Part shown: piece by piece, positions 18,968-29,816 of the stretch
Layout: every line of letters begins with the position of its first letter
Position numbering within the stretch: the first letter of the stretch is position 1
Source: Candidatus Rifleibacteriota bacterium
GTDB taxonomy: Bacteria; Riflebacteria; Ozemobacteria; Ozemobacterales; Ozemobacteraceae
Reading direction: 5' to 3'
NCBI GenBank assembly: GCA_029565415.1
Contig: JAKQOH010000197.1
Span: 8,196 to 72,195, forward strand
DNA: 64,000 nt
Notes under the pieces: model-generated
Told to the model about the DNA's origin: nothing
What the model saw: the letters and a program-made list of their open reading frames with translations, nothing else
Databases searched by the model: none
Position numbers and translations under genes: made by a program

Positions 18968-19555
18968 TCATTCTCTTCCGTATGTCGCAGCCGCCTCCGC
19001 CGCCGCCTTGCGGGCCATCGCCTCGCGAATCTCCTGCGCCCGTTTCTCGGCGGCCCGGGCCTCGCGGATGACGCTGGCGCGCTCGATGCTGTCCAGGGAC
19101 ACCAGGCGGTCGGCGGCCTGTTCCTCCGTTTCTCCCGCCGGGCGCAGACCGAGCCGATCCAGGGAAAGCCGCGCCAGCTCTTCCCGGCGATCCGGCTCGG
19201 TCACGAACCTGCCGGCCTTGACTACGCCGGCGAACCGCTCCGGAAGCTCCTGAAACAAAGCAATCGCCCCGTCGGCGAACCTTCCCGGTGTTTTCCGGAA
19301 ATACCCGTCGTGGAGCAGCCATGCGAGGATGAGCGCCGTGCGGGCCCGCTCTTCGTCCGCCTGGAGATGAACCGCCAGTTCTGCCGGAAACGGATCGGGC
19401 TTCGCACCGCCGAGATCCAGCAGAAGGTCATTGAGCACCGCCTCGAGATCCACGCCACCGCTCTGTACCGGCCGCGGCTCCCGGAGAAACACCTCGGCTG
19501 TCTCGGCCAGACGCCTCAGAAGCAGCTCCAGCGGCGGTCCTTCGCGCGTTTTCAT
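18968..19555 (-). CDS. Unknown helical protein coupled to the peptidase-VWA gene
   Basis: A 195-residue protein I cannot assign. It is leucine-rich and helical, with an Ala/Glu/Arg-rich tail (residues about 150-195) likely to form a coiled coil. Its ATG overlaps the stop of the VWA gene by 4 bp, so it is almost certainly a dedicated part of that module. Small helical partners of unknown function are common beside MoxR/VWA pairs. Confidence 0.75.
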   Translation of the reverse strand: MKTREGPPLELLLRRLAETAEVFLREPRPVQSGGVDLEAVLNDLLLDLGGAKPDPFPAELAVHLQADEERARTALILAWLLHDGYFRKTPGRFADGAIALFQELPERFAGVVKAGRFVTEPDRREELARLSLDRLGLRPAGETEEQAADRLVSLDSIERASVIREARAAEKRAQEIREAMARKAAAEAAATYGRE

Positions 19556-21342
19556 GGAACCTTCCTTTCATACTGTCTGCGGCTGAACTCGCGGGCAAAG
19601 GAGACCAGCTCCTCGAGCGTCCGCACCACTGCGATATCCCAGCCGCACCGCTTCGCCTCGACGGCCCAGGCATGCCCTTCGGGGGAGCCGTACAGGTTGA
19701 GTGCCAGCGTCCCGCCGGCCCGCCCCTTCTCGAGAGCCAGGGCCGCCGTCTTCCAGCCGCTGATCCCCCGTTCGTCATCGGCAAACATCGTGTCCACCCC
19801 CTCGTCCGAGATCACCATCACATGAACCGGCCGGTCACGCGGCGTGCGGCTCTCGAACGTGCCACGGAGCAGATGGATCGGAAAACAGGTGCCGCCCCCC
19901 AGGTATCCCGTCAGGACACCGAGCAGAGCGCTCTCGTCCCGCACGAACCCGTCCGTGGAAAGCGTTTCATTCTTGCCGCTCCAGAGCGTTGCCTTGACGC
20001 ACGAACCCGACCGGAGTGCCGAGAGAATGATGATCGCGCCGGCAAGCGCAGTATAGGAGGTGGTATATCTCGGATCCGGCATCGAGCCCGAACAGTCGAT
20101 GTACAAGTCGAGATCGACCGGGCCCGTTTCCGGATCCCGGCCGGGAACGTTGCCGTTCTGCCGTCGGACCGTCGTCACGCCCGGGATGATGCGGGGGGAG
20201 GCGGCAACCGTCTCGAACAGATCCAGTTCCTCGATCGGGGCCCCGATGTCCCAGGATTCCAGCCCCTCGATCTGTTCCTCCCGGGCTTCCGGCGAACGCC
20301 GCCGTGGGAACCGCGCGAGATGGGGCCGGGCACGTTCCCGGTAGTAGGCAATCGCGAGCTGCTCCGGGGTGAGATGGATGCCGAGATCCCGGAGAAGTTC
20401 GCCATACTGGTAGGGCTCCCGATACTGGCCGCCCCCCGTTTTGGAACTCGCCTGGTCCATCTCCTGGACATCACCGCGAGACCGCCCCTCCTTCCCCTGA
20501 CCCTGTTCCTCATCGTCCAAAGCGTCCAGTCCCGTCAGCTCCGGATCGAGCGACGGATGAACCGCCCCCTCGAGCTCCTCGGGATCGATCCCGGCAAGCC
20601 CGTCGGGAATCTCTTCGGCCCCGGCGGAAGCGCGTTCCAGGTCCCGGAACCCGCGCAACCAGGCACCGCTCTCCTGTTCGGAGGCTTTCGCGATATACGG
20701 ATACAGGAGGGAAGCGAACCGGCCGGCCCCCTGGAGCCAGTCACGGCCGTACACCCTCACGATCCTGGCCCCGAGATCCGCATCGGCGCGCAGCCGCGCC
20801 GGCAGTTCGCCGGCAGAGAGCGTCTTTCCCGGAAGCCCCCAGAGCATTTCATAGATATGCATATACAGCGTCCAGGCCGGGTCGGTGCCGCCGGAGCCGC
20901 GCAAAGCCGCGAACAGGGAGGAAAAGGAGATGCCGGCGCTCCGGTGCAGGCGATCGTTGATGAGCAGGTCGGCATACAGGTTCGCGACGAGGCCGGCATG
21001 CCGCTCGAATCCGGGCAAGGCCCGCCGGATGCGGGCAAGAAGGCGGGCCTGGTCAGCCAGATCCCCCGGGCAGAACACATGATGACCGATCTCGTGCGCG
21101 AGAATCTCGAGGGGGAACCCCTCAAGCCCGGCCCGGGCGAGATGCGGGAAACTGATGACGACGGCCTTGTCGGTCAGCCGGATCATCGCGCCCGAATCTC
21201 CGGGCCGGACCCCCTCCCGGGAAGCTTCAGAAGCACTCAGACACCAGCGGGGCTCCCGCAGCATCGTATGCCGGCTCCAGGCGTCCAGCGCCTTCGGCCA
21301 CTGCGCCCGCCACACGGGAACCAGTTCGGCGCCCCGGCTCAT
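19552..21342 (-). CDS. Putative metallopeptidase-VWA fusion (DUF2201-like)
   Basis: A 596-residue protein. The N-terminal part has the zinc motif H83-E84-I85-G86-H87 followed by NLYADLLINDRL (121-132), the N-x-x-x-D-x-x-I-N pattern of predicted metallopeptidases linked to VWA domains (COG3864 type). A middle region is acidic and disordered (about 280-310). The C-terminal VWA domain has the MIDAS motif D416-x-S-x-S, a later Thr in GGGTCFP, and Asp in ISDEGVD. Proteins of this type work with MoxR AAA+ ATPases, which remodel or load metal sites in targets. Its ATG overlaps the upstream stop by 4 bp and its stop overlaps the next ATG by 4 bp. Confidence 0.85.
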   Translation of the reverse strand: MSRGAELVPVWRAQWPKALDAWSRHTMLREPRWCLSASEASREGVRPGDSGAMIRLTDKAVVISFPHLARAGLEGFPLEILAHEIGHHVFCPGDLADQARLLARIRRALPGFERHAGLVANLYADLLINDRLHRSAGISFSSLFAALRGSGGTDPAWTLYMHIYEMLWGLPGKTLSAGELPARLRADADLGARIVRVYGRDWLQGAGRFASLLYPYIAKASEQESGAWLRGFRDLERASAGAEEIPDGLAGIDPEELEGAVHPSLDPELTGLDALDDEEQGQGKEGRSRGDVQEMDQASSKTGGGQYREPYQYGELLRDLGIHLTPEQLAIAYYRERARPHLARFPRRRSPEAREEQIEGLESWDIGAPIEELDLFETVAASPRIIPGVTTVRRQNGNVPGRDPETGPVDLDLYIDCSGSMPDPRYTTSYTALAGAIIILSALRSGSCVKATLWSGKNETLSTDGFVRDESALLGVLTGYLGGGTCFPIHLLRGTFESRTPRDRPVHVMVISDEGVDTMFADDERGISGWKTAALALEKGRAGGTLALNLYGSPEGHAWAVEAKRCGWDIAVVRTLEELVSFAREFSRRQYERKVP

Positions 21343-22394
21343 TCCCGCCGTCCCCGCGTTCCGTCTTCGCCGGGCTCTGCGGCCATCGCAATCAATAAGA
21401 CGCGATGGGAGCGGCTCAGGGTGACGGCGATCGTCGTTCCATCACAGACGATGCCGGACGGCTTCGAGATCCGCTCGAACCGGGCTTTGGCACCGTTCCA
21501 GGTGACCACGCCCTCCGGCGTGACACGCGCGGCAGACGCCGACGTATTGTTTTCAATATTATTCTTATAAGCGTATTTCCGGAAGACCGTTCCGAACACA
21601 TCGGCATGCAGGCGCCAGACGTTCTCCGCATCCCGAACGGCGAGGCTCCCGTCGAGCAGGAACGGGAGCGGAGGCGTGGCGAACGGTCCTCCGAACCCCC
21701 GGAAGCCCCCGGTTTCGGCGACGATCTGCAATCGTTTGCGCCCTCCCCGTCCGGCGGCACCGGCCTTCGCAGGATCCAGCCAGGGATCCGCCCGGAGCTG
21801 GGCCAGATCGTCCGTCGACAGGCCGAGACACGCCCGAAGGATACGCTCGCTCACGCGTCCGGCGGCATCCAGGGCAGCCTCCCGCTGGTGGGCCATGCCG
21901 CACCGCCAGGCCAGGAGACGGCCGGCATCGAACAGCTCGGCGCGGCCAGAAAGGCCGTTCACAACGGCGATCAGCCGGTCGATCCATTCCCCGGTCCGGA
22001 CACCGGGGGTCGCCTCGAGCTGGCAGAGAGCGTTCACGAGTCTCCCGGCCGTCTCCTCCGGAGCGGCGGCCAGATGCACGTGCACCGCCGGAAGCAGCTC
22101 GTTCCAGAGCCGGCCAAAGGCTTCTGGCCGGCCCGGACCGGCCAGAAGTCCCTTCTGATGCAGCATCAGCGTCAGGTCATACAGGGCGGCAACGACGGTG
22201 TCGAGACGGTCCGGCTCATGCCCCGCAATCGTTTCGGCCACCGTTCCGAGCTCGCGCACTCCGTCGGCGAAGGATTCCGGATCGAGAGCCGGGACGGCCT
22301 GGCGCGCGACAAAAAACGCGGCGTTGAACCGGTCCCGGCCCCGCCGCAGCGGTCCGGCCAGCGCCCCGGGGAGAGGCCGCGCGACGGTGTTCAC
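21339..22394 (-). CDS. Unknown protein between MoxR and VWA genes (bpX-like position)
   Basis: A soluble protein of 351 residues with no recognisable motif. The N-terminal two thirds look helical; the C-terminal third looks like strands and turns. It occupies the position between MoxR and VWA where bpX-type partners are found in ternary MoxR-VWA systems, but I cannot show homology. The GTG at 22394 overlaps the MoxR stop (GTGA) and has GGAAAG before it; an ATG at 22418 would add eight residues but has no ribosome-binding site. An AT-rich patch lies at about 21549-21574 inside a conserved-looking stretch. Confidence 0.75.
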   Translation of the reverse strand: MNTVARPLPGALAGPLRRGRDRFNAAFFVARQAVPALDPESFADGVRELGTVAETIAGHEPDRLDTVVAALYDLTLMLHQKGLLAGPGRPEAFGRLWNELLPAVHVHLAAAPEETAGRLVNALCQLEATPGVRTGEWIDRLIAVVNGLSGRAELFDAGRLLAWRCGMAHQREAALDAAGRVSERILRACLGLSTDDLAQLRADPWLDPAKAGAAGRGGRKRLQIVAETGGFRGFGGPFATPPLPFLLDGSLAVRDAENVWRLHADVFGTVFRKYAYKNNIENNTSASAARVTPEGVVTWNGAKARFERISKPSGIVCDGTTIAVTLSRSHRVLLIAMAAEPGEDGTRGRRE

Positions 22395-24019
22395 GCCCCG
22401 TCTTTCCAGGAGAGCCATTTCAGATAGTTGGTATACCGCTGGTGCAGGTATTTCAGCGCCAGAACATCATCGAACAGGTGGCCATACAGTTTGCGGCCCT
22501 TTCCGATCTCGCCGATCAGGCGTTCGATTCCTCCAAGCCGTTTGCGAACCTCGGCCTCCCCCACCCCGTCGAGCCCCTGCCCGATCTCGGCGAGCAACGC
22601 GGCGACCGGATCGTCCCGATCGAGGCACAGCCGGTCGTATTCCTGGCAGGAGAGGTCGAACAGCCTGCGGATCCAGCCGATGCGGTCGGTGCGGAAGGTG
22701 GCATTGCCGGCCTGTTCGAAGAACGGGGAGTCGGGATCCTGGACGAGCTTGTCGTGCAGGACGAACGGAATGATCTGGCGCACATCCTCGAACCCGACCT
22801 CCCCGAAGCCGCGGAACCAGGCCAGGGCCTTCGCGTAGGCCAGAACCGTCATCATCGCCCGCACCGACAATCCGTTGCGCGTCTGGCTTCCGAGGTCCCG
22901 GACCCGGTCCTTGCCCGTGTCCAGGCCGGTGATTGTCTGCCACTCGACCCCGCCGAGCTTTGCGGTGTCCTTGGTCTTGTACTCGATCTGGTCGGCCGCC
23001 ACGTCGCAGAACTCGAAATGCGCGGTGAAAAACTCGATCCGGCGCAGGAGCGTCGGGGGGATCGTGACGGCAAGAATGCCGCGATGTGCCCGGTCCAGTT
23101 CGTCATCGGTGAAGGTCACGCTTCGCGGAACCACCTCCTCGGGCCTGATTCCCTCCTCGATGCGCACCAGAAGATCGCCCAGGAAGCGGGTGTTGAAATG
23201 CAGCGCCTTCACCACGACGTCGATCCGGTCGCGCAGCGCTTCGATCACCTGATACGTGCCGCCACCCGCATCGTCGTTCGCCGTCAGATACCAGGCCGAC
23301 GGGGGGCATTCGAATATCTGATCATATAGTTCCGCATAATCGTCAGCCAGCACCGTCAGCAGCGCAGACTGGGTACGCGTCGGAATGCGGTTGTACTCGT
23401 CGATGATCTTCACGCGCATCCCGAGCCACTTCCGCCACGAGATTTTCACGTCATCCATGGTCTGGGCGTTCACCAGCGACGCGGGAAGCGGGTTGCCGAG
23501 CAGATCGGCGATCGTCATCTGGGGCTGGCCATGCTGGATCGCGCGTCGGATGTCCTTCATCGAATACCCGGCCAGGATACCCATCAGAATGGCGCTGGCC
23601 GTCTTTCCGCGGCCCGGGCCGCCGACGAGCAGGCAGCGGCGGCGCAGAACCAGCGTCAGCAGCGGCAGCAGCACGAAGCTCGAGTAGCTCTGGTCGGTCG
23701 GCAGGATCAGCCGGCTCTTCCGGTCGCCGAGCGTGAAACTCTGGGGAGGTCCGTCGTTGAACTCGATGTCGTAGAACGGGCTGATGATCGCGTGGTTGGT
23801 GATCCAGAAGTAGGCCTGGCGCAGCTTTTCATCGAGTGCCGGGCCTGCAGCGCCCGTTCCGGCATCCCCGGCCGGGACCCCGGCAGGGGCCGGCCCCTCG
23901 TAGAGATCCGCCACGTCGAAGCCGCGTTTCGGCCGTATCCGGCGCGTCAGATGCGTCGGCGCCGCGGATACCTTTCCGAACACCGCCGTGATGCTCGCCA
24001 GCGTATCCTTCAGACTCAT
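22391..24019 (-). CDS. MoxR-family AAA+ ATPase
   Basis: A 542-residue AAA+ ATPase, longer than usual MoxR (about 330) because of an N-terminal extension (1-100) and a long C-terminal part. Walker A is GGPGRGKT (133-140), Walker B is VKIIDE (203-208), sensor 1 is the Asn in LTAND (248), and arginines in ALRDRID (263, 265) fit the arginine finger. MoxR proteins act as chaperones with VWA partners. It begins 7 nt after the ligase gene and overlaps the next gene by 4 bp, placing it at the head of the MoxR-unknown-peptidase/VWA set. Confidence 0.9.
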   Translation of the reverse strand: MSLKDTLASITAVFGKVSAAPTHLTRRIRPKRGFDVADLYEGPAPAGVPAGDAGTGAAGPALDEKLRQAYFWITNHAIISPFYDIEFNDGPPQSFTLGDRKSRLILPTDQSYSSFVLLPLLTLVLRRRCLLVGGPGRGKTASAILMGILAGYSMKDIRRAIQHGQPQMTIADLLGNPLPASLVNAQTMDDVKISWRKWLGMRVKIIDEYNRIPTRTQSALLTVLADDYAELYDQIFECPPSAWYLTANDDAGGGTYQVIEALRDRIDVVVKALHFNTRFLGDLLVRIEEGIRPEEVVPRSVTFTDDELDRAHRGILAVTIPPTLLRRIEFFTAHFEFCDVAADQIEYKTKDTAKLGGVEWQTITGLDTGKDRVRDLGSQTRNGLSVRAMMTVLAYAKALAWFRGFGEVGFEDVRQIIPFVLHDKLVQDPDSPFFEQAGNATFRTDRIGWIRRLFDLSCQEYDRLCLDRDDPVAALLAEIGQGLDGVGEAEVRKRLGGIERLIGEIGKGRKLYGHLFDDVLALKYLHQRYTNYLKWLSWKDGA

Positions 24020-24026
24020 GGTCCCC

Positions 24027-25436
24027 TCACCTCCCCGTTCCCGTTTTCCAGCTCCATGGCCGTTCCATCAGCTCATCCTGCCCGATGTCACTCGTGTAGA
24101 CGATCGCCTTGCCGGCCGGCGGGCCTGACAATAGTTCAATCTTTATATCGTGTCCGGACCCGAACAGACTCTCCAGAGGACGCCGAATATCTTCTTCGTC
24201 GATACCGGTGCCGCGATACCGCAACACCAGCCGCTGGTCCGGCTCCTGGTGCAGGGAAAACTGCGGGATCGGGAGATGGCCCAGGGCCCGGGTGACATCG
24301 ATCGAGTTCACCACCTCCCCCGTATGGGTGAGGAACACGACCGGTTGTCGGCCCTCGAGACCGGCAAGGACGGGCCGGCCGCCCTCCCAGACCAGGGCGG
24401 CCGTATCGCCGGTCCGGTACCGCAGCAGGGGTAAAAACGGGTTCCGGCCGCAGGTCAGGACGATCTCCCCACGATCGCCCGGTGCGCAAATCCGCCCGTC
24501 CCCGCCGAGAATCTCGACATACAGGTCGTGAGGCAGGATCTCATGTCCTCCCGGCCCGGCAACGGCGACGAACCGCGACTCGTTGAGCGAGTAGACATCG
24601 ATCAGGGGACACCCGAAGCGCCGTTCCAGCATCGTCTTCATCCCAGGGGTGACAGCCATCGCCGAGGAGACGAGAGCACGGGGCCGGAGACTCACGGGAA
24701 GCGCGGCGAGCGCCGCGAACGCAACGGGATCCCCGGTGAGTATTTCCGGTGCTATATCATCGAGGAACCGTGCGGGATCCTCGACATTCCGCCACTCTCC
24801 CGGATTCAGGTTGATCTTCACGTAACCCGCGCCGCCGAGATACGAGATGATCGTGGCGTGGGTGAACGTCGAGGCCTGGGCGCACACCTGCGCGATCGCG
24901 ACCCCTTCAGGGGCCGCATCGAACGGCACCCCCGCTCGGCCGAGCAGCACCCGCAGCGCCCCGAGATACGAGCCGGCGGTCACGGGATGCGACAGGATCC
25001 TGACGATGTTTCCCGTCGTTCCCGACGTCGTGTAGGTGAGCAGATCGTCGAGAGGCTGATCGTCCGGCACGAAAGCCCAGGGCGCGCGCCCCAGATCCTC
25101 CCGGCCGCAGGTCGGCAGCTCCTCGAACGGGCCGGTACTGCCGGAGCGCTCCCGATAGAAGGGAACCGTTTTCAGGCACCGCTCCACGAAGGCGTCGAGC
25201 CAGTCGGGTTGCATCCCGGAGCCGGTCCAGCCGCCGGCGGCAGGGCCGTTCCGAAGCTGCGCCTCGAACGAGGCGATCCGGTCACAGGCGGACCGGGTCA
25301 GGCGGTCGCCGCAGGGAAAGGTCCAGCGCGGCGCATGGGGATGCTCCCGCAGCCGGGCAAGCCGGCGCCGGCCGGCATCGTCGAGCAGCGGAAACCGTTC
25401 CTCATCCGTCAGAGGTCGATCTCCGCTCCGGGACAT
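24027..25436 (-). CDS. Adenylate-forming (ANL) ligase, phenylacetate-CoA ligase-like
   Basis: A 469-residue member of the ANL superfamily, which activates a carboxylate as an acyl-AMP. The phosphate loop TTSGTTGN lies near residue 135, and later glycine- and aspartate-containing motifs (YRTGDTAAL, EGRQPV) match the hinge region. The overall shape resembles PaaK and the CapK-type ligases. The acid and the acceptor (CoA, carrier protein or amine) are unknown; no carrier protein gene is adjacent. It lies 22 nt after the flavin-reductase-like gene and 7 nt before moxR, so it is co-transcribed with both. Confidence 0.82.
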   Translation of the reverse strand: MSRSGDRPLTDEERFPLLDDAGRRRLARLREHPHAPRWTFPCGDRLTRSACDRIASFEAQLRNGPAAGGWTGSGMQPDWLDAFVERCLKTVPFYRERSGSTGPFEELPTCGREDLGRAPWAFVPDDQPLDDLLTYTTSGTTGNIVRILSHPVTAGSYLGALRVLLGRAGVPFDAAPEGVAIAQVCAQASTFTHATIISYLGGAGYVKINLNPGEWRNVEDPARFLDDIAPEILTGDPVAFAALAALPVSLRPRALVSSAMAVTPGMKTMLERRFGCPLIDVYSLNESRFVAVAGPGGHEILPHDLYVEILGGDGRICAPGDRGEIVLTCGRNPFLPLLRYRTGDTAALVWEGGRPVLAGLEGRQPVVFLTHTGEVVNSIDVTRALGHLPIPQFSLHQEPDQRLVLRYRGTGIDEEDIRRPLESLFGSGHDIKIELLSGPPAGKAIVYTSDIGQDELMERPWSWKTGTGR

Positions 25437-25457: not shown

Positions 25458-26036
25458 TTACCGGGCGGCGGCGACGGACGGCTTCGTGTAGCCCTTTCCG
25501 GCTTGCTGGACGAGGCCGATCGACTCCCCGACGCTCCAGTAGTGGTTGTCGGGCATCGTGAGAACCATGCCCTGCATCTTTGCCAGATCGGGCTTGCCTT
25601 CGGTCAGCACTTCTGGATGGGCATACGCGGCAACGATCTCACCGACAAAGAACCGGTTGCTCGGCAGCTCGACCGTCTGGACGAGTTTGCATTCGAGACA
25701 GAGCTGGCACTCCTCGATCATCGGCGCATGCTTCAGTGAGTTTGTGAACGTCTTGAACACGTCGGCCTTGCTGATCTTGTTTGCCGAGACGGAGCCGCAG
25801 TAATCGACGCGGGCGAGCAGGTCCTTCCCGGGGAGGCAGATGCTGAACTCGCGGTTGCGCTCGATATCGGCCGCGGTCGCGTGGCCCTTGAAGACGCCGA
25901 TCCCGATCATCGGGGGCTGCGCATTCACGCGGGTCACCCAGCCCACCGGCATGAAGTTCGGCACGCCGCCATGCATCGTCCCGACCAGCATGACGGGCAT
26001 CGGAATGAAGGTGTTTTTATCTATAGCTTTCATCAT
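25458..26036 (-). CDS. Flavin reductase-like FMN-binding protein (flavoredoxin type)
   Basis: A 192-residue protein of the split-barrel FMN-binding family (flavoredoxin/DIM6-NTAB type). The N-terminal part MPVMLVGTMHGG and NFMPVGWVTRVNAQPPMIGIG is typical, as is NREFSICLP. It probably carries FMN and moves electrons from NAD(P)H or a ferredoxin. Its ATG overlaps the stop of nadR by 4 bp; another ATG follows immediately (26033). AAGGGA lies upstream. Coupling to NAD salvage genes suggests a role that needs a fresh pyridine nucleotide supply. Confidence 0.85.
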   Translation of the reverse strand: MMKAIDKNTFIPMPVMLVGTMHGGVPNFMPVGWVTRVNAQPPMIGIGVFKGHATAADIERNREFSICLPGKDLLARVDYCGSVSANKISKADVFKTFTNSLKHAPMIEECQLCLECKLVQTVELPSNRFFVGEIVAAYAHPEVLTEGKPDLAKMQGMVLTMPDNHYWSVGESIGLVQQAGKGYTKPSVAAAR

Positions 26037-27121
26037 ATTGTTCGTTCCCTTTCAGGACCCGGCAGACGTTCTGCCGTTCCGTTCCGACCGGAATTGTATC
26101 CGATCGATCGTTCTTCCACAACGGGGACGGGAAGGCCCATGAGGAGGTCTTCGACGGCCGTTGCCGCGACCGAAAACCGTTCCTCCCAGGAGCCCCGGAT
26201 CACCACGTATCTCCGCCCCCGCGCCTCCAGCTCGGCTTTCATCCGCCCGAAAAACGCCCGTCGCTCTTCGAGGGCCGGCTGATAGCGCTGCGGATCGCCC
26301 ACCCAGGGCACATCGCAGTCCAGCAGCAGATACAGGTCGTGACACCGGGCACCGGCGAGTTCCCGGATCCATGGAGGGCATCTTCCGAACAGGATTTCCG
26401 ACCAGAGCACCGTCGTCAGAGTGTCGGTGTCACAGATAAGGAGCCGGTTGGCCTGTCTGGCCAGGGCCTCCTCGGAGGCGATCTGGCCGTGGGCAATCAT
26501 CTCGATGTCCAGGGGGGAGCACTGGTCAGGCTTGGCTTCGAGCAGGTCGCGGGCATACTCGTGGACGAACACCGTGCCAAACTGCTCCGCGAGCCGTCTT
26601 CCGAGCGTCGATTTGCCGGCCGACTCGGGGCCGACGATGCAGACACGCCGGACGAACCAGGGCCGCACGGCCGGAGGTAGATACCGCCAGTGGGCCATCG
26701 GATCCTCGCGGACCTTCGTGCCCGAGACCGGCACCAGGCCGCGAGAGACATTCACGGGCCAGAACCGCGCACCAAGCGTCTCGGCGAGCTTCCAGCCGTA
26801 GGACTCCGAAGCGAACACCACATCCGGATCGGGGCAGAAGCGCCGGATGCTGTCTCTCCAGATCCGCCAGAAGTCGGGGTGCTCATGCGGCTCCTGCGGA
26901 TTCTCGTCGGGGTTGTGCAGCACCTCGACGCCGGGAAACATCTCGCGCATCCACTCCCACCGCTTCACGCCGGGAATGGGTTCTCGCTCGAGCGAGCAGA
27001 CCAGCACCGTCAGCCGCTCGACGCAGTTCCGGGCAAAATCGACGAGATACTGGTGGCCCAGATGCGGCGGAAGGAACTTGCCGATGATCAGGCCGCGCGC
27101 AGGCTTTCTTCCTTCTTCCAT
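26033..27121 (-). CDS. nadR: NadR-type NMN adenylyltransferase / ribosylnicotinamide kinase
   Basis: A 362-residue bifunctional enzyme of NAD salvage. The N-terminal nucleotidyltransferase has GKFLPPHLGH (14-23). The C-terminal kinase has the P-loop GPESAGKS (164-171). The DNA-binding repressor domain of enterobacterial NadR is absent. It phosphorylates nicotinamide riboside brought in by PnuC and adenylates NMN to NAD. The ATG at 27121, preceded by GGAG, lies 34 bp inside the end of pnuC, so the two are tightly coupled. Confidence 0.92.
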   Translation of the reverse strand: MEEGRKPARGLIIGKFLPPHLGHQYLVDFARNCVERLTVLVCSLEREPIPGVKRWEWMREMFPGVEVLHNPDENPQEPHEHPDFWRIWRDSIRRFCPDPDVVFASESYGWKLAETLGARFWPVNVSRGLVPVSGTKVREDPMAHWRYLPPAVRPWFVRRVCIVGPESAGKSTLGRRLAEQFGTVFVHEYARDLLEAKPDQCSPLDIEMIAHGQIASEEALARQANRLLICDTDTLTTVLWSEILFGRCPPWIRELAGARCHDLYLLLDCDVPWVGDPQRYQPALEERRAFFGRMKAELEARGRRYVVIRGSWEERFSVAATAVEDLLMGLPVPVVEERSIGYNSGRNGTAERLPGPERERTI

Positions 27122-27666
27122 GACCGTCTCCAGACGAAATACCCGCAGCCCGCCATCCCCAGGAACAGCACATACAGGGCTGTCGTCGGCCACAACTGCT
27201 TGAAGGCATACATACCAACGCTGACGATGTCGACGAAGATCCAGAGGAACCAGCATTCGAGGTATTTGCGTGTCATCAGATACTGCGCGGCAAGGCTGGC
27301 AATCGTGGCCGTTGCATCGACATAGGGAAGCGCGGCATCGGTGCGCAGATGCATGACCCCGCCCAGCGCCGCCGCGCCGGCCACCGTCGCCGAAATCCAG
27401 GCCGCGAACCGCCATCTTCCCAGCCGTGTGACCGGAGGCTGGGGCCGGTCTTTTCCGCCATACAGCCAGTGATACCAGCCCCAGAACTGCAGCACGACAT
27501 AGATCACCTGCAAGCCCATGTCGCTGTAGAGTTTCGCGTCCCAGAACACCTTGGTGTACAGCGCCACGTTGACGATGCCGACCGGCCAGCACCAGACGTT
27601 TTCCCGGATGGTCAGCCAGACGTTGATGAACCCCAGCAGGGCGGCGACGAGCTCGAGCCAGCTCAT
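27088..27666 (-). CDS. pnuC: Nicotinamide riboside transporter PnuC
   Basis: A 192-residue inner-membrane protein with about seven helices. The start WLELVAALLGFINVWLTIREN and later WFLWIFVDIVSVGMY are strong PnuC family signatures. It imports nicotinamide riboside by facilitated diffusion, and phosphorylation by the overlapping nadR product traps it. It starts 7 nt after the DUF362-like gene. Confidence 0.93.
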   Translation of the reverse strand: MSWLELVAALLGFINVWLTIRENVWCWPVGIVNVALYTKVFWDAKLYSDMGLQVIYVVLQFWGWYHWLYGGKDRPQPPVTRLGRWRFAAWISATVAGAAALGGVMHLRTDAALPYVDATATIASLAAQYLMTRKYLECWFLWIFVDIVSVGMYAFKQLWPTTALYVLFLGMAGCGYFVWRRSWKKEESLRAA

Positions 27667-27673
27667 GGGAACC

Positions 27674-28957
<1,284 letters not shown>

Positions 28958-29037
28958 GCGCGACTCCAGTCTGGCGGTTCGCCCCCGAGGTATCGCATCC
29001 CCGGCGGCTCCCTGCCCCATCACAGATCAGCCCGTCC

Positions 29038-29072: not shown

Positions 29073-29816
29073 TCACTCGTCGCCGGCACTCTGCTGCATG
29101 TTTTCCTTCAAGGCTTCCTCACGCTCACGCTCGGCGTCCCGAAGGGCCTCCTCGCGTTCCTTCTCGGCCTCGCGCAGCGCCTCTTCACGCTCCTTCTCGG
29201 CTTCGCGCAGGGCCGCGTCCCGCTCCCGGTCGGCCTCCTGAAGCGCGGCATCACGCTCTGCCGCTCCCGCCTCGAGAGCATCCGAAGTCTGCTGTTCCGC
29301 GGTTCCGAGGGCTTCCTGTGTGGCCTTCTGGCCGGCATCCAGGCCGTCCTGGAGCGCCTTGTTTCCGCTTTCCATCGACGTCTTCACGGTTTCACCGACG
29401 TGCTGCATGGTCTGATCGAGAATCTTCTGCGTGCCCTCCATCGAGGACCGGGTGATGTTGGACACGAGCTCATTCACGGATTTGAGGGTCGCTTCGACCG
29501 ACTTGTTGGTCTGGCTCACCGAGGTCTTGACCAGCTCCCCGACCTGACCGTTCACGGCGGCCAGGGTCTCTTTCACCTGGGCATCCGTCAGCTTCATCGA
29601 GTTGCCGATCATCTCCTGCATCTGCTTCTGCAGTCCCTGAAGGGACTGCTGGACGGCCTGATCGGTCTTGATTTCCGGCATATTCAGGATTTCCGACAGT
29701 TTCCCGTCGACCGATTTCATCCCGTCCACGACCTGGGGATCGACCTGGGCAAAGAGGGGTCCCGCTGCGAGCAGCATCACCACGAGCAGGGGGGATCCAC
29801 GACGGACGATCTTCAT
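29073..29816 (-). CDS. Exported coiled-coil protein with 11-residue repeats
   Basis: A 247-residue protein with a signal peptide (cleavage near AQA/V, residue 24). The rest is predicted helix: a Met/Gln/Thr-rich middle region and, at the end, five near-identical units of the form E-R-x-x-A-L-x-E-A-x-K/R. It is probably a periplasmic fibrous or spacer protein. AGGAGGAG precedes the ATG, and a TATAAT lies at 29858-29863. It lies between a clostripain-like peptidase gene upstream and the DUF362 operon downstream. Confidence 0.82.
   Translation of the reverse strand: MKIVRRGSPLLVVMLLAAGPLFAQVDPQVVDGMKSVDGKLSEILNMPEIKTDQAVQQSLQGLQKQMQEMIGNSMKLTDAQVKETLAAVNGQVGELVKTSVSQTNKSVEATLKSVNELVSNITRSSMEGTQKILDQTMQHVGETVKTSMESGNKALQDGLDAGQKATQEALGTAEQQTSDALEAGAAERDAALQEADRERDAALREAEKEREEALREAEKEREEALRDAEREREEALKENMQQSAGDE
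29103..29258 (-). repeat. Tandem 33-bp repeats coding an 11-residue coiled-coil unit
   Basis: Four full units and one shorter unit in frame, for example EREEALREAEK. An 11-residue period gives a straight, right-handed coiled coil. The DNA units are very similar, so copy number could change by slippage. Confidence 0.8.

Follow-up and report, generated by a model that had tools for sequence, protein, structure and literature searches.

We analysed a 64,000-nucleotide stretch of DNA (the window) from a Candidatus Rifleibacteriota bacterium (assembly GCA_029565415.1, contig JAKQOH010000197.1, positions 8,196 to 72,195) and found that it carries a module of five proteins that are inherited together in bacteria. 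All five are encoded on the minus strand: a MoxR-clade AAA+ ATPase (22391..24019, 542 residues); P2 (21339..22394, 351 residues); a zincin-VWA protein, with an N-terminal part that carries HEIGHH and a C-terminal VWA domain (19552..21342, 596 residues); P4, which is predicted to be all-helical (18968..19555, 195 residues); and LIG, a divergent PaaK-like adenylate-forming enzyme of the ANL superfamily (24027..25436, 469 residues). Among the matches listed, the closest named relatives of the window proteins belong to Candidatus Ozemobacteraceae, a family of the Riflebacteria. The partnership of the five proteins is well supported, and from it we infer a possible mechanism, in which an ATP-driven machine may remodel the P4-LIG enzyme.

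MoxR, P2, zincin-VWA protein, P4 and LIG are inherited together

The initial annotation described MoxR, P2, the zincin-VWA protein and P4 as four genes that are joined by 4-bp overlaps and act as one machine. The coordinates bear out this arrangement, with three overlaps of 4 bp each, and the view that the four act as one unit is supported by conserved gene order and correlated divergence. However, its boundary was too narrow and the machine incomplete: the run of genes does not begin at MoxR, and LIG, which lies 7 bp upstream of MoxR in the window and is an equally regular member, was missed.

By scanning bacterial genomes with a profile, we confirmed at least 146 relatives, from which the best 80 loci were analysed as a sample. 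About eleven phylum-level groups are named in the titles of these loci, and Janthinobacterium, Massilia and Dyella are among the hosts. When the 80 loci were searched with the window proteins (tblastn), all contained the zincin-VWA protein, while 71 had MoxR, 75 had P2 and 68 had P4; several of the absences are contig ends. Same-strand succession, with spacing from −60 to +150 bp, was found for MoxR to P2 in 56/70 cases, P2 to zincin-VWA in 67/74, zincin-VWA to P4 in 52/68 and P4 to LIG in 54/61. Homologues of the four genes thus do not usually lie apart, and P2 and P4 showed no convincing match to ordinary metabolic families; the opposite outcomes had been named in advance as evidence against the module.

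We then compared the divergence of the five proteins in 35 five-protein sets (34 loci and the window). The sets used for identity and Mantel comparisons excluded ten Janthinobacterium loci, and sequences that had internal stops, ran off a contig end or were of unsuitable length were dropped. The Mantel correlations were high for all ten protein pairs (r = 0.74–0.87), with at most 0.38 in the permutations (999 for each pair). A chance juxtaposition of open reading frames (ORFs) was rejected, because the gene order recurs across phyla and the divergence is correlated.

LIG usually lies directly after P4 in other loci. Clustering of the neighbours placed a ligase of about 457 residues in 61 of the 80 loci, and tblastn raised this number to 64. 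Among the 16 loci without LIG, 11 were checked (including L001, L058 and L070), and in the other five the contigs end 2–1045 bp past the zincin-VWA gene. LIG was present in all 30 zincin-VWA genomes chosen from the 80 loci (478–662 bits, with 127 for the next best match), and it was found elsewhere in the genome in 8/8 genomes that lack it at the locus (418–591 bits, one being split in two frames). In total, LIG occurred in 38/38 of the zincin-VWA-bearing genomes checked. Four LIG matches of the genome searches contained one internal stop, although the corresponding loci (L050, L052, L053 and L060) hold intact ORFs.

The same association appeared in two even draws of genomes, both centred on and including a module genome, the first with two more previously known carriers. 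In the acidobacterial-phylum draw the zincin-VWA protein was present in 5/119 genomes and LIG in the same five (p-value 5e-9), and in the Janthinobacterium-family draw the zincin-VWA protein, LIG and P4 were present in the same 14/145 genomes (p-value 9e-20); these Fisher p-values overstate the association because related genomes are not independent.

The two parts of the module need not be adjacent. LIG and the zincin-VWA protein are on separate contigs in two genomes and 31 kb apart in a third. P4 directly precedes LIG in 5/8 genomes with LIG outside the zincin-VWA locus, in some perhaps on the same contig, and one of these five is arranged as P4-LIG-PnuC-NadR. Three loci (L004, L005 and L041) contain another P4-LIG pair, complete or partial, and 4/30 genomes another strong LIG. 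Thus LIG, often together with P4, can lie apart from MoxR-P2-zincin-VWA.

Properties of the member proteins

The window LIG lies far below the curated cut-offs of known families. It scored 66.9 bits against NF045666 (cut-off 300), about 31 bits against PaaK models and 18.2 bits against PF00501 (cut-off 29.9), and its match in the PDB was the phenylacetate-CoA ligase 9s3l (E = 5.3e-8). It shares the ANL P-loop, the RYRTGD motif and a C-terminal Lys with PaaK and DVU_1553-family AMP-dependent ligases, but it forms a separate orthologous group, the members of which score 418–662 bits against their own profile (one further copy is split in two frames). Over 54 LIG sequences, G139 and E286 are present in all, RYRTGD in nearly all and K443 in 48. 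Adenylating activity of LIG is predicted from these motifs.

The assignment of MoxR as an AAA+ ATPase agrees with its match to Pfam AAA_lid_2 (32.9 bits, cut-off 22.7) and with its Walker A (GGPGRGKT) and Walker B (IIDEYN) motifs, which are near-invariant across 68 aligned sequences; AAA_3 scored 26.3 bits, just below the cut-off of 27. Identity to 24 relatives was 57–73%. The long MoxR extensions, which had been taken as the mark of a variant, are normal in the family, being present also in the 24 aligned relatives.

At E up to 1, no Pfam, NCBIfam or PADLOC model matched the window P2, P4 or zincin-VWA protein. P2 has a GTG start; beginning instead at an in-frame ATG (22418) would lengthen it to 359 residues. 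Its AlphaFold2 model (mean predicted local distance difference test score, pLDDT, 93.6) has a helical N-terminal part (about 10–215) and a beta-rich C-terminal domain (about 220–339), and the protein carries an FRGFGGPF motif. Among the candidates scored, 11 P2 relatives were found at E ≤ 1e-3, including the window's own. The P2 profile matched three viral fusion glycoproteins in the PDB weakly (E 0.07–0.1), and a Pfam scan of 67 P2 members gave scattered weak matches at most, of which no use was made. P2 is the fastest-diverging member, with a mean pairwise identity of 0.31, compared with 0.66 for MoxR, 0.50 for the zincin-VWA protein, 0.42 for P4 and 0.41 for LIG.

P4 had been described as a small helical protein without a family, which the Pfam and NCBIfam scans and the AlphaFold2 model (mean pLDDT 91.9, all-helical, with a long C-terminal helix at 156–192) confirm. 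Judged by these searches, P2 and P4 are conserved families without a convincing Pfam or NCBIfam model. P4 relatives at E ≤ 1e-3 numbered 1337 among the candidates scored, including the window's own (best 120 listed). The P4 profile gave a single weak PDB match (E = 0.22). When 66 P4 members were compared with Pfam, DUF4158, an N-terminal region of Tn3-type transposases, was matched by 6 (best 7.6e-6) and NPHP3 by 9 (best 0.0034); these matches are weak and were put to no use.

P4 ends in a conserved Arg-Glu. The last residue is Glu in 117 of the 120 database homologues (among the matches listed), and of the 68 loci, 60 have Glu there, two Asp, four (actinobacterial) Val, one Trp and one Lys. 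We rejected the possibility that the terminal Glu is a by-product of an ATGA overlap with the next gene, because Glu is kept in 35/43 loci without the overlap.

The near-invariant Glu would suit a Pup-like scheme, in which LIG would activate the P4 C-terminus, P4 would be attached to targets, and MoxR and the zincin part would process them. LIG always accompanies P4 in the draw searched for both, and an AAA+ protein and a putative peptidase are found in one unit, as the scheme would need. However, no Pup or ubiquitin-like similarity of P4 was found in the PDB (P4 profile) or Pfam (66 members), P4 is predicted as a folded 195-residue helical protein, the actinobacterial tails end in Val, and ANL enzymes normally activate small acids. 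We therefore regard this scheme as quite improbable. It is highly improbable that the module is a protein-modification machine, in which LIG would adenylate the P4 Glu, P4 would be linked to targets, MoxR-P2-zincin-VWA would unfold or remove them, and the NAD-precursor (nicotinamide adenine dinucleotide-precursor) genes would be accessory.

In the zincin-VWA protein, the HEIGHH residues H83, E84 and H87, to which a putative peptidase had been assigned, are correctly placed and invariant in all 80 sequences aligned (79 of the 80 loci plus the window). This putative zincin site may act as a peptidase or have a structural role. The window protein has no VWA match in Pfam, which leaves its VWA assignment weak, but 28/36 relatives matched VWA_2 (best E 7.8e-4, matches up to E = 5 being counted), and a metal ion-dependent adhesion site (MIDAS) is present. 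Its residues D416, S418, S420, T485 and D513 are conserved in 79, 80, 80, 65 and 80 of the 80 sequences, respectively, and the remaining 15 have Y in the T485 column, in a loop that is mostly GTGY. Among the candidates scored, 2490 relatives of this protein were found at E ≤ 1e-3, including the window's own (best 120 listed), and a PDB search with its sequence profile matched no solved structure.

By eye, the metallopeptidase and VWA-like proteins of DUF2201 (PF13203) resemble the zincin-VWA protein, with a zincin-like half followed by VWA and with HExxH and A-x-D-x-x-I-N motifs. The profile alignment (hhalign) gave a probability of 23% over 46 columns of the VWA part alone, the DUF2201 alignment consisting of six sequences, and the DUF2201 Pfam model matched none of the 36 relatives.

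The type of MIDAS loop was associated with the Arg-Glu end of P4, which was found with 50/56 T-type and 4/12 Y-type loops (Fisher p-value 1.4e-4). This association may reflect relatedness, because the Y forms all fall in a single clade of 17 leaves, the tree showing 3 changes. As a separate observation, a YhcG-type PDDEXK nuclease (PADLOC PDC-S02) is inserted between P2 and the zincin-VWA gene in an acidobacterial locus (L001:8822-9931).

Possible action of the module

We tentatively favour a five-protein, ATP-driven machine similar to CbbQO and NorQD, in which MoxR-P2-zincin-VWA would remodel the P4-LIG enzyme; the probability that we give it falls somewhat short of even. MoxR would form the AAA+ ring, the zincin-VWA protein would be its client-gripping partner and P2 may be a fast-evolving adaptor. 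The dedicated client would be the P4-LIG adenylating enzyme, whose acidic P4 tail would be held by the VWA MIDAS. ATP hydrolysis would then remodel P4-LIG, which might activate it, strip off a tightly bound adenylate, or insert a metal or cofactor. The pathway is probably metabolic, touching on NAD precursor salvage (NadR, PnuC and sometimes a radical S-adenosylmethionine (SAM) enzyme).

This remodelling role is favoured because the MIDAS and HEIGHH residues are kept, because the P4 tail is acidic, and because CbbO, Rea1 and NorQD offer precedents. According to excerpts of PMC4660213 and PMC6624252, respectively, an acidic client residue completes the MIDAS metal site of CbbO and that of Rea1, and an excerpt of PMC13036017 states that NorQD inserts metal by twisting a linker and that MoxR-VWA pairs insert metals. 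The CbbQ-CbbO Rubisco activase likewise combines a MoxR ring with a VWA protein that has an intact MIDAS; its client is gripped via an acidic residue (PMC4660213, excerpt), and the conservation of the P4 tail points to the same here. However, the present module differs in the N-terminal zincin-like part of its VWA protein, in the additional P2 and P4, and in having an adenylating ligase instead of Rubisco.

Several points weigh against the machine. The proposed contact between tail and MIDAS may be wrong, because the loci in which P4 ends in Val keep an intact MIDAS; the last residue of P4 is non-acidic in 6/68 loci (4 Val, 1 Trp and 1 Lys). A pure activase does not account for the invariant HExxH, and the C-terminal Lys of LIG is absent or unaligned in 6/54 sequences. 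No LIG without the zincin-VWA protein was found in the two draws, a result that is slightly less firm because scoring was limited to part of the candidates (no more than 9 in each genome for zincin-VWA in the second draw, 14 and 11 for LIG, and 22 for P4). The draws covered the zincin-VWA protein and LIG, and in the second also P4. NadR was absent at the threshold used in 9/38 module genomes. Finally, the fast evolution of P2 would equally suit a conflict-system sensor.

The initial annotation had suggested a variant of the MoxR-vWA ternary systems, which have been proposed to act in biological conflict or protein maturation. In an anti-phage system of this kind, P2 would be the fast-evolving sensor. 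Excerpts of PMC7159879 describe ternary systems (VMAP, iSTAND, FtsH and beta-propeller types) that share MoxR, VWA and a fast-evolving third protein with the module, and the patchy spread (5/119 and 14/145 genomes) and the fast change of P2 stay compatible with a conflict role. However, the gene order here is MoxR-P2-VWA, whereas that of the VMAP systems is VMAP-MoxR-vWA (PMC7159879, excerpts). VMAP models were matched by none of 67 P2 sequences, and VMAP-M8 by one of 66 P4 members (E = 0.13). PADLOC 2.0 gave no match for MoxR, P2, zincin-VWA or P4 at E up to 1. No effector domain was seen: VWA is the C-terminal domain, with no added effector or propeller, whereas in the beta-propeller systems the propeller lies C-terminal to vWA. 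Moreover, no match was found in plasmids (zincin-VWA query), phages (MoxR query) or viral contigs (zincin-VWA alignment).

The flanks also spoke against conflict. We took 90 of 147 candidate ORFs, from fewer than the 37 chosen loci, by a longest-ORF rule and with no background set. The PADLOC families matched by these 90 proteins (25 of 37 listed) comprised two viperin models (8 and 7 members), which are probably matches to radical SAM proteins, as well as mad2, PD_DExK and many PDC-S02 (one member each). Housekeeping genes (SmpB, RNase E/G and FtsW-type) lie nearby. In Janthinobacterium, inheritance of the module looks vertical, because flanking families are common to several species. A conflict role thus gained no support, there was no clear sign of phage defence, the kinship proposed earlier is unsupported, and we consider the anti-phage explanation unlikely.

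In the main text of PMC7159879, 'adenylat', 'AMP-ligase', 'HExxH' and 'NadR' are absent, and 'zincin' appears once, for the peptidase of a linked peptide-processing system. In the literature on MoxR-VWA, NadR/PnuC, DVU_1553 and DUF2201, no paper describing the five-gene unit was found among the matches listed, which were excerpts. The MoxR-VWA machinery is already known, but its pairing with an adenylating ligase, P2 and P4 was unseen in these matches.

To our knowledge, many MoxR-VWA pairs lack a known client. Here, the pair comes with a likely dedicated enzyme, since it is associated one-to-one with a predicted adenylating ligase in many phyla. This pairing makes it testable which acid LIG activates and what the AAA+ ring does to P4-LIG.

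Neighbouring genes and the gene run in the window

Two NAD-precursor genes lie upstream of LIG on the minus strand of the window. The first encodes a NadR-like nicotinamide mononucleotide adenylyltransferase and ribosylnicotinamide kinase (26033..27121, likely start 27121), which scored 265 bits against TIGR01526 (cut-off 341) and matched NadR in the PDB (E = 1e-37). The second encodes a PnuC nicotinamide riboside transporter (27088..27666; TIGR01528, 98.2 bits, cut-off 42.45). NadR was found in 36/80 loci and PnuC in 19/80, in several arrangements and on either strand, and the NadR motif GKFxPxHxGH and the Walker glycines and Lys are intact in 35/35 sequences (F in 34).

Full-length NadR occurred in 14/14 module genomes and 6/131 others in the Janthinobacterium-family draw, and NadR occurred in 4/5 module genomes and 4/114 others in the acidobacterial-phylum draw. 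Overall, 29/38 module genomes have NadR, one of the 29 with a partial match; as with LIG, some genome-search matches contain a single stop. NadR was accordingly rejected as an obligatory member, and NadR and PnuC are linked to the module without being obligatory.

Radical SAM proteins made up 9 of the 90 flanking proteins, and two families of them, F8 and F12, occur in 9 and 6 of the 80 loci. Such genes bear on a maturation chaperone of the CoxDE/NorQD type, in which MoxR-VWA would insert a metal or cofactor into a metalloenzyme encoded elsewhere, while LIG-P4, with radical SAM and NadR, would make or attach the cofactor. The radical SAM genes that some loci carry close to the module, the associated NAD-precursor genes, and the metal insertion and enzyme remodelling described for the MoxR-VWA pairs NorQ-NorD and CoxD-CoxE (PMC13036017, excerpt) agree with it. 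However, the radical SAM families are in a minority of loci, the module has LIG and P4, and no widely recurring client enzyme family was seen among the neighbours clustered within 10 kb of the 80 loci, where no nitric oxide reductase or carbon monoxide dehydrogenase family was recognised. This explanation is possible but doubtful, and remodelling of P4-LIG is preferred. Two adjacent MoaA-like radical SAM genes lie near LIG in L006, L055, L071, L073 and L076, and in nine loci a single radical SAM gene of another kind lies within the module or close to it.

In the window, nine minus-strand genes follow each other from 29023 to 18968 with gaps of at most 21 bp: DUF362, PnuC, NadR, flavin-reductase-like, LIG, MoxR, P2, zincin-VWA and P4. 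From this spacing alone, we infer that the run may be transcribed as one unit; a promoter and terminator scan gave about the same number of sites as in shuffled sequences. The DUF362 gene (27674..29023) lies 7 bp upstream of PnuC and is possibly the first of the run, and the flavin-reductase-like gene (25458..26036; PF01613, 85.7 bits) lies between NadR and LIG. Neither was among the recurrent neighbour families recognised around the 80 loci.

Beyond the run, the minus strand continues 63 bp past P4 (17532-18904) with a gene for a 238-residue protein without a Pfam match over the cut-off, followed by a protein-L-isoaspartate methyltransferase (PCMT). On the other side, a minus-strand gene (29073-29816) encodes a 247-residue protein with C-terminal charged repeats of the REREEAL type, which by eye are likely to form a coiled coil.

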